From Ignavibacteriota bacterium (GTDB lineage: Bacteria; Bacteroidota; Ignavibacteria; Tepidaquicellales; Tepidaquicellaceae): a stretch of 5,594 nt of DNA. The notes beneath the pieces were generated by a model that was not told where the DNA came from, did no database searches, and was given only the letters and a program-made list of their open reading frames with translations. The stretch is taken from contig PNBM01000083.1 in NCBI GenBank assembly GCA_003135995.1, positions 9,077 through 14,670 on the forward strand, in the 5' to 3' direction. Made by a program: the position numbers and the translations under genes. Positions 1 to 5,145 of this stretch are shown in pieces (position 1 is the first letter of the stretch; each line of letters starts with the position of its first letter).

Positions 1-1153
1 ATTTGTTGGTATCGTTTATACAGGTTTTTTCAAATTCTTTTTCTTTCCCATTGTTTTTAACCTTCCCATAAATACAAATTGAACAATTATTTTTTTCACA
101 CATTCTGGGAACAAAATCAAATGTTATGTCAAATTGTTCTGGATACCCTTTTTCTTTTTCTATCTCTTCTTTAACATAAATTTCCCTTAGTAGTCTATTA
201 AATGGCTTTTTATTATCATTTGCCCAGTCTATACCTTTTAAAATGCAATCTCTGAAAATAGAATTATTATTCCATACATCTCCTGGAAGTTCTAACTCTG
301 CTAAATTTATATCTTTAGAATTAAAACCATTTTTTTTTAAAAATGGAATAAATGATTTATTATAATTAGGAAACTTTAGTAAATCTCTTAAAGCACACCA
401 AGCGCGTTTCTGTTCGTAAATTTCTTTTTTCTTGAATTTCTTAAATGAATTAAGAAATTTATTTGAATTATCAAGTAATTGTATATCGATATTTATTTCT
501 TCATCTAAATTATTCTTTAAATTATCAAAATTGTCAATATCCTTATATTTTATTTGCTCTATATCTTTGTATGTAAGAATATATAATCCAAAGAGTAATA
601 ATTTTATTTTATTTTCATGATTTTCTGTTAAATTTATAATTCTCTCAATATATTTATAAAAGCTGAAATCGAATTTCTCTAAAATTAGAAAAGTCCTTAA
701 AATAGCTTGATAGTCTGATGGAAAAAATCTTGAAGCAAAATATGGTTCCATTTTTGACTCAAATCCAAAATTTATTAATTTTACGTTTCCATTTGTTTTG
801 GTGTGAGAAATAAAAATGTATTTATTTTTATCTTCTTCTATCTTAATCAATTTGAATTCATCTTTGTATTCATATTCATCCCTTTTTGTCATATGAGTAT
901 CTTTACATTTTGGCTTTAAATATCCTATTTCTTTATAAGTAATGATATTATCTACTAATTCAGAAAAAATGAATCCTCCTACATCCCAAATTCTTTTAAC
1001 ATTCATTTGGCGATCAGTTATGTAACTAATCCAGTGTGTTAATATTTTCGATTCAAAATTTAAATCTTTATAGAAATTTATTATATCTTCATCACCAAAT
1101 GACCCCCATCTTGCTTCATCAAAAAACGAAGAGATTTTAAATATCTTTTCCAT
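1..1153 (-). CDS. Unrecognised large protein with Cys cluster, partial (C-terminus beyond left edge)
   Basis: An open frame of 384 codons runs from the ATG at 1153 to the left edge without a stop, so the C-terminus is missing. The start lies 7 nt after the stop of the WYL regulator gene, with no Shine-Dalgarno, so the two are probably one transcript. I do not recognise the family. It looks soluble, without signal peptide or membrane segments. Visible landmarks are ARWGSFGDED near residues 14-23, RFFPSDYQAILRT at 142-154, KRAWCALRDLLK at 249-260, ELPGDVWNNN at 288-297, and a cysteine group C352-x4-C357-x2-C360 with a further Cys at 378, which could bind zinc or an iron-sulfur cluster. The order 'LPxDVW' then CxxxxCxxC loosely recalls helix-hairpin-helix DNA glycosylases with a C-terminal Fe-S cluster, but no convincing hairpin motif is seen; this is speculation. 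Reading-frame confidence is high, function is unknown. Confidence 0.85.
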   Translation of the reverse strand, partial: MEKIFKISSFFDEARWGSFGDEDIINFYKDLNFESKILTHWISYITDRQMNVKRIWDVGGFIFSELVDNIITYKEIGYLKPKCKDTHMTKRDEYEYKDEFKLIKIEEDKNKYIFISHTKTNGNVKLINFGFESKMEPYFASRFFPSDYQAILRTFLILEKFDFSFYKYIERIINLTENHENKIKLLLFGLYILTYKDIEQIKYKDIDNFDNLKNNLDEEINIDIQLLDNSNKFLNSFKKFKKKEIYEQKRAWCALRDLLKFPNYNKSFIPFLKKNGFNSKDINLAELELPGDVWNNNSIFRDCILKGIDWANDNKKPFNRLLREIYVKEEIEKEKGYPEQFDITFDFVPRMCEKNNCSICIYGKVKNNGKEKEFEKTCINDTNK

Positions 1154-1160
1154 TTTTGTG

Positions 1161-2150
1161 CTATTTATAATTTAATAATGATTCATTCAATTCATTATAG
1201 ATTATTTCCCTCAACTCCTTCGGCTCAATTACTTTGCAATCTTTTCCCATTGCAAGCACCCACATAAATACTTCAGTCAGGTTATTTACTCTGAATTCAA
1301 GTAATATTGAACCATCATTAAGTTCTGTTATTTTTTGAGATTTTATCCATTGCCTTTCCTTGATGTACCTTACAGATTCATTCATTATTTTAAGTTTGAC
1401 ATCATAAATCTCCTTGCTTTCAAAAATACCAAAGCTGTCTTTGAAATAATTCTCTATACTGAAATCATCAGGTATATCAAAATATCTATTGGTAAGTTTT
1501 ATTTCCTGTATTCTGCTAACGGCAAAAACCTTTACCTGTTTAGCTTTATGGCAATATCCTATTATATACCAGTCACCCTGATGGTTTTTTAAGTGATATA
1601 TATCAATCTCCCTGTCAGATATCTCTCCGCTATGTCCAGTAAAGTATTTGACCCATATTCTTCTGCTTTCCCTAACGGCGGTTGTAATTTTATCCATGGT
1701 AATTTCATTAACGCTTCTTACGGGACCAATCTGGAAACTTATTATACGGTCAAGGTCTTTTGCATCAATGGAAATCTTTTCATCGAACAGGTAAGAAAGT
1801 TTTTCATAAAATTTCTTAAAATATTTTGAATATGGGCTGTTTTTGTACTGCTCAAGAACTTTTTCCGTAACAGCCAGGGCGAGTAAATCACTTGAATCGA
1901 TTTTAATGGGGTTTAACCTGTATTTATCATCTGAATAGTAAAATCCTTTTCTAAGCTTATCAAATTCAATCGGGGCATCATACTCGAACTTCATAAAATC
2001 AATGTCGCGTTGGATAGTCTTGGTAGATACTTCAAGCTTGTTTGCCAATCTTTCTTTATTAGGGAAGCGTTTTTCTCCTATTTCCCGGTCAATTATGTTG
2101 AGTCTTTTGAGTAAAATTTTATTTACTGATAATTTTTGTGATTTGTTCAT
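1161..2150 (-). CDS. HTH-WYL domain transcriptional regulator (YafY-like)
   Basis: DNA-binding transcription factor of 329 residues, the usual length for the family. The N-terminal winged helix-turn-helix of the HTH_11/DeoR-like type spans about residues 8-78, with the recognition helix in VSTKTIQRDIDFMK (41-54). The WYL domain covers roughly 150-230: the name-giving motif appears as DWYIIGY (193-199) and the conserved ligand-pocket arginine is R213 in FAVSRIQEI. A C-terminal WCX-like segment follows (about 248-329). In this family the WYL domain senses ligands such as nucleotides or single-stranded DNA and the HTH binds inverted repeats. The gene is divergent from the agmatine-deiminase-like gene across a 110-bp spacer containing a GGGACA-N5-TGTCC inverted repeat, its most likely operator. 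It is followed by the unknown gene reaching the left edge. No Shine-Dalgarno precedes the ATG at 2150. Confidence 0.95.
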   Translation of the reverse strand: MNKSQKLSVNKILLKRLNIIDREIGEKRFPNKERLANKLEVSTKTIQRDIDFMKFEYDAPIEFDKLRKGFYYSDDKYRLNPIKIDSSDLLALAVTEKVLEQYKNSPYSKYFKKFYEKLSYLFDEKISIDAKDLDRIISFQIGPVRSVNEITMDKITTAVRESRRIWVKYFTGHSGEISDREIDIYHLKNHQGDWYIIGYCHKAKQVKVFAVSRIQEIKLTNRYFDIPDDFSIENYFKDSFGIFESKEIYDVKLKIMNESVRYIKERQWIKSQKITELNDGSILLEFRVNNLTEVFMWVLAMGKDCKVIEPKELREIIYNELNESLLNYK

Positions 2151-2175: not shown

Positions 2176-2206
2176 CAAAAATTACACGCAATATAAACGG
2201 AACAAA
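2176..2206 (-). promoter_or_regulatory. Possible Bacteroidota-type promoter of the WYL regulator
   Basis: Read on the minus strand, TTTG (2206-2203) is followed after 18 nt by TAATTTTTG (2184-2176), one base longer than the TAnnTTTG -7 box. The Bacteroidota consensus is TTTG about 19-21 nt before TAnnTTTG, so this is an imperfect match. It would start transcription roughly 15-20 nt before the ATG at 2150. The -33 element directly abuts the inverted repeat at 2207-2222, so a protein bound there could autoregulate the WYL gene. Confidence 0.35.
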
Positions 2207-2222
2207 GGGACAGTATATGTCC
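2207..2222. promoter_or_regulatory. Inverted-repeat operator, copy 1 (GGGACA-N5-TGTCC)
   Basis: GGGACA (2207-2212), spacer GTATA, TGTCC (2218-2222): perfect 5-bp arms GGACA/TGTCC around 5 bp, in the spacer between the divergent WYL regulator and agmatine-deiminase-like genes. The same element recurs at 4033-4048 at the same distance (12 nt) from a TAnnTTTG box. The neighbouring WYL regulator is the obvious candidate to bind it. The position, where the rightward promoter's -33 box would lie, fits an activator site but does not exclude repression. Confidence 0.7.
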
Positions 2223-2234
2223 TCCTTGCCTGAT

Positions 2235-2242
2235 TAGTTTTG
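2235..2242 (+). promoter_or_regulatory. -7 box TAGTTTTG of the agmatine-deiminase-like operon
   Basis: Exact match to the Bacteroidota -7 consensus TAnnTTTG, placed 18 nt before the ATG at 2261, implying a leader of only about a dozen bases. No TTTG -33 box is seen 19-21 nt upstream; that place is taken by the inverted repeat 2207-2222, so the promoter is probably weak without an activator. Confidence 0.55.
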
Positions 2243-2260
2243 TATTAAAAATGTAAAAGA

Positions 2261-3220
2261 ATGGAAAAAGATAAGAATCTGGTTTTGGTTTATCCCTATG
2301 GGATATGGAGAAATTTCTATATCGCTTTTTATGATGTATTTATCAGAGATTATCTCTTTAAATATCTCGAAAATGTAAAAATAACTTTTATAGTTAAAGA
2401 TAAAATCGGCAAGCTATTGATTGAGGAAAAATTCAAGTGCTTTGATTTTAACGTATACGTCATACAGGAAACCCTGGATATATGGATTAGAGACTGGGCG
2501 CCGATTGTTTGTAACAATATTATAGTCAAAGCAAAATTCAGCCCTAAATATCTAAAAAGGGCATATAAATACCAGTCTGTTCCTTTAGATACTGCTGGTA
2601 AAAAGATAGCAGATAAACTAAATCTTAAATATAGTGAAATTTCTATAGTGCTTGACGGAGGGAATTTCGTTCATAATGGGCATGGGGTCTGCATAATAAC
2701 TAACAGGGTAATTACTGAAAACGAAAATTTGTCCATTGGAGAGATTGAGAAAATTCTTAAAGAATCATATAATCTTAACAAAGTTGTCTTTGTTCCTGTT
2801 GAACCCGGTGATGAAACTGGACATATAGATGGAATGGTAAGATTTACAGACGAAAAAACTCTGTTTATTGCGGATTATCCCGATGAATACGAAAAAGGAA
2901 AAGTTTTCATGGATAATGTTGAAATTTTACTTAGAGAAAAACTTGGTCCTGATTATAAAATAATCAGGCTTCTGAATGAAGTACCGGTAGACCTACATAA
3001 GGCATTATCTTTCCCAAGCGCAGTAGGGAATCATACTAATTTTCTCCAAATAGGTAATAAAATATTCATGCCGGATTTTAAACTTAAAACAGATGAACAG
3101 GCGTACATGTCGCTTAAGAATAATTTAGAAAACCATGAAATTATCAGAGTAAACTGTAGAGAATTATATAGTATAGCCAGTGACGGAGGTGTTTTAAACT
3201 GCATATCCTGGCAATATTAA
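2261..3220 (+). CDS. Agmatine deiminase family protein (peptidyl-arginine deiminase, Porphyromonas type)
   Basis: Predicted cytoplasmic guanidine-modifying hydrolase of 319 residues. Family motifs appear in order: WIRDWAP (75-81), LDGGN (131-135), GDETGHID (183-190) with the catalytic His188 and acidic D184 and D190, NHTNFLQIGNKIFMPDF (257-273), and the C-terminal nucleophile Cys314 in GGVLNCISW. Known members turn agmatine into N-carbamoylputrescine or deiminate arginine residues. This protein differs from canonical agmatine deiminases: it lacks the usual N-terminal MPAEW-type segment, is shorter than the typical 340-370 residues, and has Asn instead of His just before the nucleophile (NC for HC). 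The substrate may therefore not be agmatine. The start at 2261 has no Shine-Dalgarno but fits the promoter at 2235. The next gene starts 7 nt after the stop, suggesting an operon. Confidence 0.88.
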   Translation: MEKDKNLVLVYPYGIWRNFYIAFYDVFIRDYLFKYLENVKITFIVKDKIGKLLIEEKFKCFDFNVYVIQETLDIWIRDWAPIVCNNIIVKAKFSPKYLKRAYKYQSVPLDTAGKKIADKLNLKYSEISIVLDGGNFVHNGHGVCIITNRVITENENLSIGEIEKILKESYNLNKVVFVPVEPGDETGHIDGMVRFTDEKTLFIADYPDEYEKGKVFMDNVEILLREKLGPDYKIIRLLNEVPVDLHKALSFPSAVGNHTNFLQIGNKIFMPDFKLKTDEQAYMSLKNNLENHEIIRVNCRELYSIASDGGVLNCISWQY

Positions 3221-3227
3221 AAAAATT

Positions 3228-4013
3228 ATGGAAAATAAAATTATTAAAGAATTTCCGTTAGAACAGTTAAATACTGTTCTGGGCGGAATTAAGCAAAACA
3301 CTTTTTACTATTTCTTTTTCCAATTATACGAAAATGAAAAAGTGAATTCGATTAATGAAATTATTACCGGCATTAGGGGCATAGAAACAGATACAGTAAA
3401 ATCTGCTGAGACCTTTTATAAAAACTTTTTTATGAGTTTTGATGAGTTAACACGAAAAGAAAACATACTGTTGATAAACCTTAATGACGAAATTTCAAAG
3501 GTCATAGAATATTTTAAAAACAAACCGGAGGTTGATATTAATTATCTATACGACAAATACGATATATATGACTTTATGAATCTGCTGAATTCAACACCTG
3601 TATCAGATGAACTTAATTATAAAATAAATAAGAATGCTGAAAAACAAGGAAGCATTATATTGTTCCAATTCGCAAATGAAGAAAAAGAAATAATAGAAGA
3701 ATTATTTTTTCCAGACATTCCGATGACTTATAAAAAAATAAACATTGATTGTTTTGCGGGCGGGTATTTATTTGATTTTATCACGGAAAAAACAAAAGAC
3801 GGCATTAAGCATGAATACAGTTATCTCTTTTTCATAAAAGACAAAGAAAATATATCTGGCAAGATTGAAAATGAAGAAATATGTTTATTAAAAACATTAA
3901 CATTTGATATTAATGATTATAAAAAAAACCTGGAATACTTTAAAAAAGGCGTTAATACAACATATACTTTTCATAAGAAATTCAACATAAAGACTTTCAT
4001 AATTTCAGACTGA
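3228..4013 (+). CDS. Unrecognised soluble protein co-transcribed with the deiminase-like gene
   Basis: A 261-residue frame starting 7 nt after the deiminase-like stop, so the two very likely share one transcript and may act together. I do not recognise a family. It is lysine- and glutamate-rich, without signal peptide or membrane helix. The N-terminal part (1-135) looks mostly helical, with an aromatic run FYYFFFQLY at 26-34. The C-terminal part (about 140-260) has alternating hydrophobic strands such as SIILFQF (142-148) and YSYLFFI (197-203). A double glycine follows a short leader-like helix (LEQLNTVLGG, 11-20), probably by chance. Only two cysteines are seen (175 and 219) and no obvious catalytic motif. 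Base composition resembles the preceding gene. It ends 19 nt before the second inverted repeat. Confidence 0.85.
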   Translation: MENKIIKEFPLEQLNTVLGGIKQNTFYYFFFQLYENEKVNSINEIITGIRGIETDTVKSAETFYKNFFMSFDELTRKENILLINLNDEISKVIEYFKNKPEVDINYLYDKYDIYDFMNLLNSTPVSDELNYKINKNAEKQGSIILFQFANEEKEIIEELFFPDIPMTYKKINIDCFAGGYLFDFITEKTKDGIKHEYSYLFFIKDKENISGKIENEEICLLKTLTFDINDYKKNLEYFKKGVNTTYTFHKKFNIKTFIISD

Positions 4014-4032: not shown

Positions 4033-4048
4033 GGGACATTATTTGTCC
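4033..4048. promoter_or_regulatory. Inverted-repeat operator, copy 2 (GGGACA-N5-TGTCC)
   Basis: GGGACA (4033-4038), spacer TTATT, TGTCC (4044-4048). The arms are identical to the copy at 2207-2222, as is the 12-nt gap to the following TAnnTTTG box. Arms and box are conserved while the spacer has diverged, the pattern expected of a binding site plus promoter. It lies in front of the broken small membrane-protein gene, placing that gene in the same presumed WYL regulon. Confidence 0.7.
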
Positions 4049-4060
4049 TCTTGCTTTGAA

Positions 4061-4068
4061 TAATTTTG
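4061..4068 (+). promoter_or_regulatory. -7 box TAATTTTG in front of the broken membrane-protein gene
   Basis: Exact TAnnTTTG match, differing from the copy at 2235 in one base. It ends 6 nt before the ATG at 4075, so the transcript would be leaderless or nearly so if that start is right. As in copy 1, no TTTG -33 box lies 19-21 nt upstream and the inverted repeat occupies that place. Confidence 0.5.
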
Positions 4069-4074
4069 TAGTAT

Positions 4075-4359
4075 ATGATTAACAAAACTAAAATATGGTA
4101 TGTCTTTCTTTTAGCAGTTCTTTTTTCCTTTGAAGAACCCTTCTGATGCTTATCGCTCATATACTCAATTAACCCATGACTTTTTTATAATCATGCCGGT
4201 ATTTATAATACTATAAGTAAAATATGTTTTATTTCTGCGGTCGTACTTTATGTATGTAATATAGCAGATGCGATATCACCAAATAAAGAAAAGATATATG
4301 TAAATCTAAATGATGGTGTGATAACTTTATCTGTTTTTTATACTTTTAACTACAAATAA
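4075..4359 (+). pseudogene. Broken small membrane-protein gene, resembling the C-terminal part of DUF5683 proteins
   Basis: Three consecutive pieces read as one protein only if frames are switched twice. Piece one (ATG 4075, frame 1) starts MINKTKIWYVFLLAVLF, a signal or membrane segment, and stops at TGA 4144. Piece two (frame 2 from 4139) reads PSDAYRSYTQLTHDFF. Piece three (frame 1 from about 4186 to TAA 4357-4359) reads YNHAGIYNTISKIC, then a membrane helix ending VLYVCNIADAI, and a tail ending SVFYTFNYK. Removing one C from the CCC at 4138-4140 and adding one T to the six-T run at 4181-4186 restores a continuous frame of about 94 residues. The 'YxxNIxDA' helix followed by a strand-rich end resembles DUF5683 membrane proteins of Bacteroidota, but the usual N-terminal membrane core is missing. 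It may be a decayed gene, or intact with two sequencing errors. It follows operator copy 2 directly. Confidence 0.6.
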
Positions 4360-4473: not shown

Positions 4474-5145
4474 ATGATCAATTATAATTCGGACAAACTA
4501 AAACATTTATTATATGAAAAAGAAAATTTGAATTATTCAATAAAAGGATATAATGAAGCGATATTAAAAGCAGAACAGATTTGTGAAGCTTTTTTAGGAT
4601 GCACACTAAGAATAAGAAAAGAAAAATTCATCATATCTATGCTTGAAATATATTATGGAAGTATTGAGGATAAAGCTCATGATTGGTACAGAACACATTA
4701 TATATATAAAAATTCTAAATATAAAGAACATACAGAAAAACAACTTGAAAAGGGAATAAAGTTATATTTGAGTACATTGAAAGATGACGATACATACCAA
4801 AGAATGGATTTTGTTATAGGAAACGAAGGTGTTGCAGTAAGCTTATTGTTGAGGCGAATTCACAATATGGATTTCAGTAAAATGTGTAATAATAATAGTA
4901 AGGGCGAACCCCACAATATTTTAAAAAAAATGGGAATAAAAAATAGTGATCATGGAAAACCAATTCAATTTTTAGATGAAGATAATAATGATTACAAGTC
5001 TATTGTTATTATTGATACACATCGTGATATATATAATAAATTTAATCTAATTACGAAGACAAAAAAAAGAATTAATGTAAAAACAGAATTCGAAGAAAAG
5101 AATTCCCTCAATTGGAATTTTTCAGCTGAACGTGAAAAAAATTAA
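4474..5145 (+). CDS. Divergent alkyladenine/3-methyladenine DNA glycosylase (Mpg/AAG fold)
   Basis: Predicted monofunctional DNA glycosylase of the Mpg/AAG family, which cuts damaged purines from DNA. At 223 residues it is of normal family length. Residues AEQICEAFLGCTLRIR (33-48) match the 'A..LLGk.L.r' start of the fold. LEIYYGSIEDKAHDWYR (57-73) aligns with 'ETEAYLGpeD.AAH': E58 falls on the catalytic Glu (human E125), Y60 on Y127 and H69 on H136, with identical 11-residue Glu-His spacing. VIGNEGVAVSLLLRR (114-128) matches 'VtGpeGvpeaVLIRA'. HNILKKMGIKNSDHG (147-161) matches 'GkLtqALGI...nG', and KKRINV (197-202) with WNF (213-215) matches the closing 'pRIGI...pWRF'. The pocket Asn (human N169) aligns with D112, and the usual YVYxxYG strand is replaced by a polar stretch, so substrate range may differ. 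The ADP-ribosylglycohydrolase starts 9 nt downstream. No Shine-Dalgarno precedes the ATG. Confidence 0.72.
   Translation: MINYNSDKLKHLLYEKENLNYSIKGYNEAILKAEQICEAFLGCTLRIRKEKFIISMLEIYYGSIEDKAHDWYRTHYIYKNSKYKEHTEKQLEKGIKLYLSTLKDDDTYQRMDFVIGNEGVAVSLLLRRIHNMDFSKMCNNNSKGEPHNILKKMGIKNSDHGKPIQFLDEDNNDYKSIVIIDTHRDIYNKFNLITKTKKRINVKTEFEEKNSLNWNFSAEREKN

Follow-up and report, generated by a model that had tools for sequence, protein, structure and literature searches.

A recurring palindrome at one fixed distance from a promoter box: predicted DriD-like operator-promoter modules of a WYL regulator in Bacteroidota

WYL regulators are very common, and to our knowledge few of them have a known operator. 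We found that two short blocks in the window (the whole 5,594-nucleotide stretch analysed here) are probably operator-promoter modules of the WYL regulator encoded beside the first of them, with predicted binding of a WYL dimer and DriD-like activation of transcription. The palindrome arms, their fixed spacing, and their linkage to one clade of WYL proteins recurred in several families. The features of the window were as follows.

2 to 1153, minus strand: uncharacterised protein.
1161 to 2150, minus strand: WYL regulator of 329 aa, built from a winged HTH, a helical linker, and the WYL and WCX domains.
2190 to 2195, minus strand: TATATT, 12 nt from palindrome 1, predicted to serve the WYL gene as its -10 element, which would make the regulator autoregulated.
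2208 to 2222, strandless: palindrome 1, GGACA-N5-TGTCC, where a WYL dimer is predicted to bind, with the WYL and PAD_porph genes running away from it on either side.
2235 to 2242, plus strand: -7 box TAGTTTTG, 12 nt past palindrome 1.
2261 to 3220, plus strand: PAD_porph/agmatine-deiminase-like protein, first gene past module 1.
3228 to 4013, plus strand: uncharacterised protein of 261 aa.
4034 to 4048, strandless: palindrome 2, GGACA-N5-TGTCC.
4061 to 4068, plus strand: -7 box TAATTTTG, 12 nt past palindrome 2.
4075 to 4146, plus strand: short open frame of 23 aa, directly past module 2.
4474 to 5145: uncharacterised protein of 223 aa.
From 5155: ADP-ribosylglycohydrolase, start only.

The first-pass annotation had described a duplicated module, and we confirmed it: the blocks at 2207-2242 and 4033-4068 were the same at 27 of 36 positions and had in common the GGGACA/TGTCC arms, the spacer length of 5 nt, the gap length of 12 nt, and TAnnTTTG. 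The first copy did adjoin the WYL gene as described, palindrome 1 being 57 bp from its start codon. TAnnTTTG is the consensus -7 box of Bacteroidota primary promoters, and both modules fit it, the promoter position being assigned by sequence alone. Box TAGTTTTG reads into the PAD_porph gene, which starts approximately 18 nt downstream. Palindrome 1 also allowed a second reading toward the WYL gene, GGACA-N5-TGTCC-N12-TATATT (window 2222 down to 2190; C373:11266-11298, minus strand), and module 1 looks bidirectional, with the WYL gene on one side and the PAD_porph operon on the other. Module 2 faces a small gene that has apparently decayed; in a reading of the three frames, the coding sequence past 4146, to about 4360, was apparently frame-broken. 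The PAD_porph protein scored below the NCBIfam agmatine deiminase cut-offs, and a homologue of the 261 aa protein in another genome of the family (G003, 36% identical) lay directly after a module there. Remains of a Mutator-type transposase gene (Transposase_mut) were seen on the same contig as the window, at L012:3597-4529, and Rfam gave no match for the window or for the loci L038 and L040.

GGGACA-N5-TGTCC occurred in exactly two places in the window, and allowing up to 2 mismatches gave four rows (both palindromes on both strands) versus 0.35 expected from dinucleotide shuffles. The Markov expectation for the full pattern was 3e-7 per window and 2.5e-4 per genome; since the pattern was drawn from the window's own copies, this figure is post hoc and the weight rests on other genomes. 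The window's own genome is an incomplete assembly (383 contigs, 4.23 Mb; the window is C373:9077-14670), in which the palindrome alone was not enriched, with 3 places versus 5 for a reversed control pattern. One palindrome, on C62, fell within a coding frame resembling nuoG, and we discounted it as a chance occurrence. The exact combination of palindrome and -7 box was found only at the two window places. With up to 3 mismatches there were 8 rows, one of them palindrome 1 read from the opposite strand, versus 12 control rows; matches with 3 mismatches, being at control level, were rejected as support. Another of the 8 rows, a third and weaker copy of the module with 2 mismatches, was located 1 kb upstream of the window (C373:8059-8094, minus strand). 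It ended 15 nt ahead of an ATG in a gene cluster, consisting of an AAA protein and then a second PAD_porph frame, which is interrupted by an assembly gap.

We searched 29 genomes of the window's own family, all of them for the palindrome, the module, and PF13280. Perfect palindromes numbered 32, and the reversed control pattern was commoner. Since the palindrome alone was not over-represented, copy number is no argument, and only location and spacing count. PF13280 gave 35 rows in 23 of the 29 genomes. The clade of the window's WYL protein was defined as the 13 rows with at least 52 bits, the other 22 being weaker. A perfect palindrome was located within 150 bp of 9 of the 13 clade genes. The other four (G012, G013, G017:C29, and G018:C218) had variant palindromes within approximately 2.5 kb, namely TGACATTATTTGTCA twice, TGACATTATATGTCC, and AGGCACTATATGTCC; in every case an exact TAnnTTTG box stood 11 or 12 nt away. 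By coordinates, none of the 22 other WYL rows in the same family genomes had a perfect palindrome within 4 kb; one of them, G019:C90, was 4.9 kb from a palindrome. Eight loci with distant WYL genes (L066-L073, from 8 of the 22 weaker rows) served as a negative control and showed no site. Two side observations concern the clade genes themselves. The G010 WYL gene, one of the nine, was split in two frames (L035:8809-9780), and its adjoining module was intact; the subclade with variant palindromes comprised three TGACA forms and one GGCA form (L041:5899-7852, L042:2059-3954, L060:4609-6516, and L061:514-2397).

The exact module, with TAnnTTTG at 11-12 nt, was present at 11 sites in 7 of the 29 family genomes, and all 7 fell among the 11 genomes with clade WYL genes (Fisher 2e-4). 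Nine of the 11 sites were within approximately 2.1 kb of a WYL gene. The other two were on separate contigs, one of them preceding a 75% identical paralogue of the gene behind a mismatched module near the same genome's WYL locus. In G028 the palindrome was upstream of WYL without a good box. The other family of the order had the exact module in none of 15 genomes, and a scan of the class found it in 8 of 391, seven of which belong to the window's family. For the eighth, G347, a scan of 7 of the 12 frames listed in 12 kb revealed no WYL domain.

The distance from palindrome to box was examined at 11 family loci. Among 16 palindromes read on both strands, exact TAnnTTTG boxes 0-60 nt downstream occurred five times at 11 nt and six times at 12 nt, and at no other position in that range. 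Three of these loci (L032, L034, and L035) had been picked by the motif itself. The other eight, with 13 palindromes, contributed five boxes at 11 nt and three at 12 nt, the rest of the 0-40 nt range being empty; scanning them from -60 to +59 added a single TAnnTTTG at -57 and none overlapping the palindrome. Duplicate palindrome contexts were counted once in the tallies of these eight loci and of the phylum loci below. Five palindromes without WYL linkage had no exact box. The family box search covered 16 + 5 of the 32 palindromes. At family loci the looser TAnnnT also fell within the palindrome, at offset -8, for 5 of 26 directions, and some family copies may have a box that overlaps the palindrome.

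We further surveyed 395 genomes of the phylum with an alignment of 12 clade WYL proteins as query (E 1e-45), which returned 61 matches in 48 genomes. Apart from the window's own locus, we studied the 29 with the best scores, a choice based on the WYL protein and never on the DNA motif; 25 belonged to family f37, two to f35, and two to f50. A palindrome with at most one mismatch was located within 300 bp of the WYL gene in 19 of the 29 and was absent from that range in 10. In total, 11 perfect and 11 one-mismatch palindromes lay within 300 bp, versus mononucleotide shuffle means of 0.01 and 0.45. TAnnnT followed at exactly 12 nt in one direction for 14 of 14 perfect palindromes (binomial 7e-22, ignoring relatedness) and for 21 of the 24 palindromes obtained when one mismatch was allowed, and no other offset from -60 to +59 exceeded 4 of 28 directions. 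TAnnTTTG itself was absent within 40 nt of the palindromes at these loci, those of f35, f37, and f50 carrying TAnnnT in its place, which indicated that the core box differs among lineages while the distance is constant. In Fibrella rubiginis (L056:6735-11714), a WYL gene between cas1e and cas3e had a perfect GGACA-N5-TGTCC on each side; its product was 27% identical in the best segment, and by eye neither palindrome had TAnnTTTG at 11-12 nt.

Across the phylum genomes, GGACA-N5-TGTCC-N12-TAnnnT was present in 25 of 48 WYL-positive versus 14 of 347 WYL-negative genomes (Fisher 8e-17), although many loci come from close relatives and the survey counts are not independent. Inside f37, counted by eye, the module was present in 21 of 27 WYL-positive versus 6 of 59 WYL-negative genomes (9e-10). 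Since the link held within this one family, family history alone does not explain it. Outside f37 the link was weaker (4 of 21 versus 8 of 288, 0.006), and more distant WYL proteins perhaps use other sites. The 29 WYL-positive genomes with studied loci contained 45 module sites versus one for the reversed control; the loci of 30 of these 45 sites were examined, and the exact module was absent from 7 of the 29 genomes. The motif was therefore found where an operator of these proteins was expected, beside 9 of 13 family clade genes and 19 of 29 phylum loci, and instead of being scattered at random the module was rare elsewhere in the family, class, and phylum scans. The proposal that it is the operator of the WYL protein, a prediction from sequence, is supported by the clade linkage and the fixed spacing. 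The first-pass annotation had also spoken of a local regulon. Single genomes of other families contained as many as 6 module matches, and the extent of the regulon is probably more than local.

These surveys bear on two other explanations. A recent duplication of one promoter, or a chance likeness, with no wider meaning would agree with the 27/36 identity of the two blocks, but it is barely conceivable, because protein-selected loci of other genera and families carry these arms at this spacing while their spacer and gap bases differ. It is also highly improbable that the palindrome serves some different regulator, or an alternative sigma factor, that merely has WYL genes among its frequent targets. 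The WYL gene was first downstream of many modules, and the 14 WYL-negative genomes with a module would fit such a scheme. Six of those 14 belong to f37 and may carry a diverged WYL gene under the threshold. However, in surveys that looked for WYL as the only regulator gene, module presence followed the WYL gene over 395 genomes and within one family too, the modules of G017, G018, G024, and G025 pointed away from WYL and yet adjoined it, and the palindrome variants matched the WYL subclade (TGACA..TGTCA in G012 and G013).

The window's WYL protein matched Pfam WYL (1.7e-18) and WCX (1.4e-17), with HTH_11 below cut-off. Pfam and the structural model together placed winged HTH, helical linker, WYL, and WCX in one chain, as in DriD-type activators. 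The AlphaFold2 model, built from 12 sequences, was weak overall (pLDDT 72, pTM 0.40). Its best Foldseek match was the DriD-DNA complex 8tp8 (E 2.8e-18 over 327 alignment columns; TM 0.59, rmsd 13, approximately 20% identity), followed by PafBC (7.3e-15) and then by CapW and BrxR (2.3e-10 and weaker). A single-protein sequence search of the PDB placed PafBC at the top (2e-13) and DriD chains next. A DriD-like fold is thus predicted for this protein. Based on the fixed distance from site to box and on the first place of DriD among the fold matches, we read the module as a DriD-like activator site.

If the TA of the box is numbered -12/-11, following the convention in the available part of PMC12340889, the 12-nt gap would place the half-sites at -39 to -35 and -29 to -25, with the N5 spacer over -34 to -30 and a half-site on each side of -35. 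The two winged HTH domains would sit to either side of sigma region 4 and retain RNA polymerase, possibly at a promoter without its own -33 element. A poor or missing -35 element is a trait of DriD-type activation; TTG at N18-21, the position of the -33 element, was found in 0 of 9 modules versus 3 of 18 ordinary TAnnTTTG promoters, a small sample. A WYL dimer on the palindrome, 12 bp upstream of the -7/-10 box, would in this way activate transcription as DriD does in Caulobacter. We infer that the WYL protein binds the palindrome, that it activates instead of represses, and that single-stranded DNA or a nucleotide is sensed at the WYL domain.

The palindrome could instead be the operator of this WYL protein acting as a repressor of the BrxR/CapW/sll7009 type, which would block sigma at -35 until it is released by a phage- or damage-derived ligand. 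Several studied WYL regulators linked to defence do repress, namely CapW, BrxR, and sll7009 (PMC9122588 and PMC9122601 for CapW and BrxR, in their available parts), the targets found here are defence-like, and a protein bound across -35 could keep RNA polymerase off the promoter. We consider repression unlikely nonetheless. CapW and BrxR sites, as described in the accessible text of those papers, overlap or follow the -10, whereas the only conserved box here was downstream of the palindrome at one fixed distance; a repressor does not need such exact spacing; and the modelled fold was nearer to DriD than to CapW or BrxR.

Returning to the activator reading, we examined the genes downstream of the modules. 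In the window's own family an AAA ATPase was found behind modules, and the one copy scanned matched PADLOC IetA (E 1.2e-14). Four AAA copies in three genomes, all PF00004, each had a module in front, with distances from box to start of -2 (first possible start), 14, 15, and 49 nt; two of the four modules (that of G000 and one in G019) had a single arm mismatch plus a single box mismatch. The other family genes behind modules encoded PAD_porph, an uncharacterised family of 259-261 aa, and DUF6847, and genes for GmrSD_N and ADP-ribosylglycohydrolase were located farther along the same islands. At the four variant-palindrome loci, a metallophosphatase (calcineurin-like phosphoesterase) followed in 4 of 4 and a DUF932-like protein in 4 of 4, the latter passing the Pfam cut-off in three and missing it in L042. 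As a separate observation, L033:1340-3666 and L012:5948-8043 each contained a two-gene operon in which a PAD_porph deiminase-like protein accompanies an AAA ATPase with a homologue that scans as IetA; the two may form a defence pair that has gone unrecognised.

Across the rest of the phylum, the first gene behind the module was often WYL itself. A Cas3c-type gene came next in five f37 loci, picked by eye from 25, and two further scanned neighbours (L082 in f37 and L083 in f50) were not Cas3c-type. In G515, a Cas3e-type gene began approximately 220 nt from the module. Response regulators and Sel1-like repeat proteins were also seen behind modules, by eye only. In G017, G018, G024, and G025, the module was 3' of WYL and faced the end of a class II ribonucleotide reductase gene (called by Pfam for G018 and by likeness for G017, G024, and G025), with no long frame between. 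The stretch behind this 3' module, of approximately 235-350 nt (L037:9164-9452, L038:1245-1590, L040:10010-10259, and L039:8099-8460), ran toward the convergent ribonucleotide reductase gene and contained a purine-rich run resembling a ribosome site and a GC-rich hairpin with a T run; in two genomes it had an ATG followed immediately by TGA. It is a candidate small RNA or gene remnant.

DriD-type activators belong to the DNA-damage response and are switched on by single-stranded DNA in the WYL domain; the targets of the modules seen here were mostly defence-like or uncharacterised instead of classical repair genes. It is conceivable, though we hold it with some doubt, that the DriD-like WYL activator turns defence on: single-stranded DNA or a nucleotide from phage attack or damage would bring the WYL dimer to its -35-centred palindrome and induce CRISPR-Cas (cas3), IetA-like AAA/arginine-deiminase genes, and further defence operons independently of LexA, in an ancient system, recognisable from sequence, that is spread across the Bacteroidota-Chlorobi phylum. 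Any genome of the phylum can be scanned for the motif together with its promoter geometry, and the geometry would predict activation from the sequence of a promoter. CRISPR-Cas and uncharacterised defence-like islands would thereby be linked under one kind of regulator, and the AAA plus arginine-deiminase-like and DUF932 plus metallophosphatase operons become candidates for phage defence.

Compared to known systems, the window's protein resembles PafBC as a WYL/WCX activator. PafBC is a heterodimer that uses one -26 or -24 motif with RNA polymerase (PMC11804915, in its available part), whereas the site here is a symmetric palindrome; the window's 15-kb contig contained one WYL gene and no paired pafB/pafC arrangement. 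SiwR of Mycobacterium smegmatis (PMC10693628) is comparable in being a WYL homodimer that activates and in having an imperfect palindrome, of 19 bp, next to its gene, but that palindrome spans -35 to -10 and its targets are other (dinB-like). CapW and BrxR are similar in being WYL regulators of defence operons with inverted-repeat sites and differ in that both are repressors and in their weaker fold match; according to the available parts of the reports, CapW sites overlap the -10 (PMC9122588) and BrxR sites are downstream of a -10 (PMC9122601). WYL genes at CRISPR-Cas loci were described by Makarova et al. 2014 (PMC4012209), similar to the cas3 genes behind several WYL genes here; in the available text of that work a regulatory role was predicted, no operator was named, and the word 'promoter' was absent from the main text. 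The motif was not reported in the open-access titles or abstract beginnings searched, whose coverage is limited, so it has possibly been published.

The closest likeness was to DriD, the WYL activator of Caulobacter crescentus. According to PMC12340889, its pseudo-palindromic sites cover the -35 position and keep a constant distance to the -10, which the putative WYL site here resembles when compared by position instead of by site letters; in both cases there is also a divergent promoter beside the regulator gene. In the driD promoter, activation by DriD concerns the divergent operon and leaves out driD itself (PMC12340889), whereas many modules here face the WYL gene, and the DriD targets didA, bapE, recJ, and dnaG are replaced here by cas3, AAA/PAD_porph operons, and the WYL gene. 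Together with the shared build of winged HTH, linker, WYL, and WCX and the best fold match, DriD is the known regulator that the window's WYL protein is predicted to resemble.
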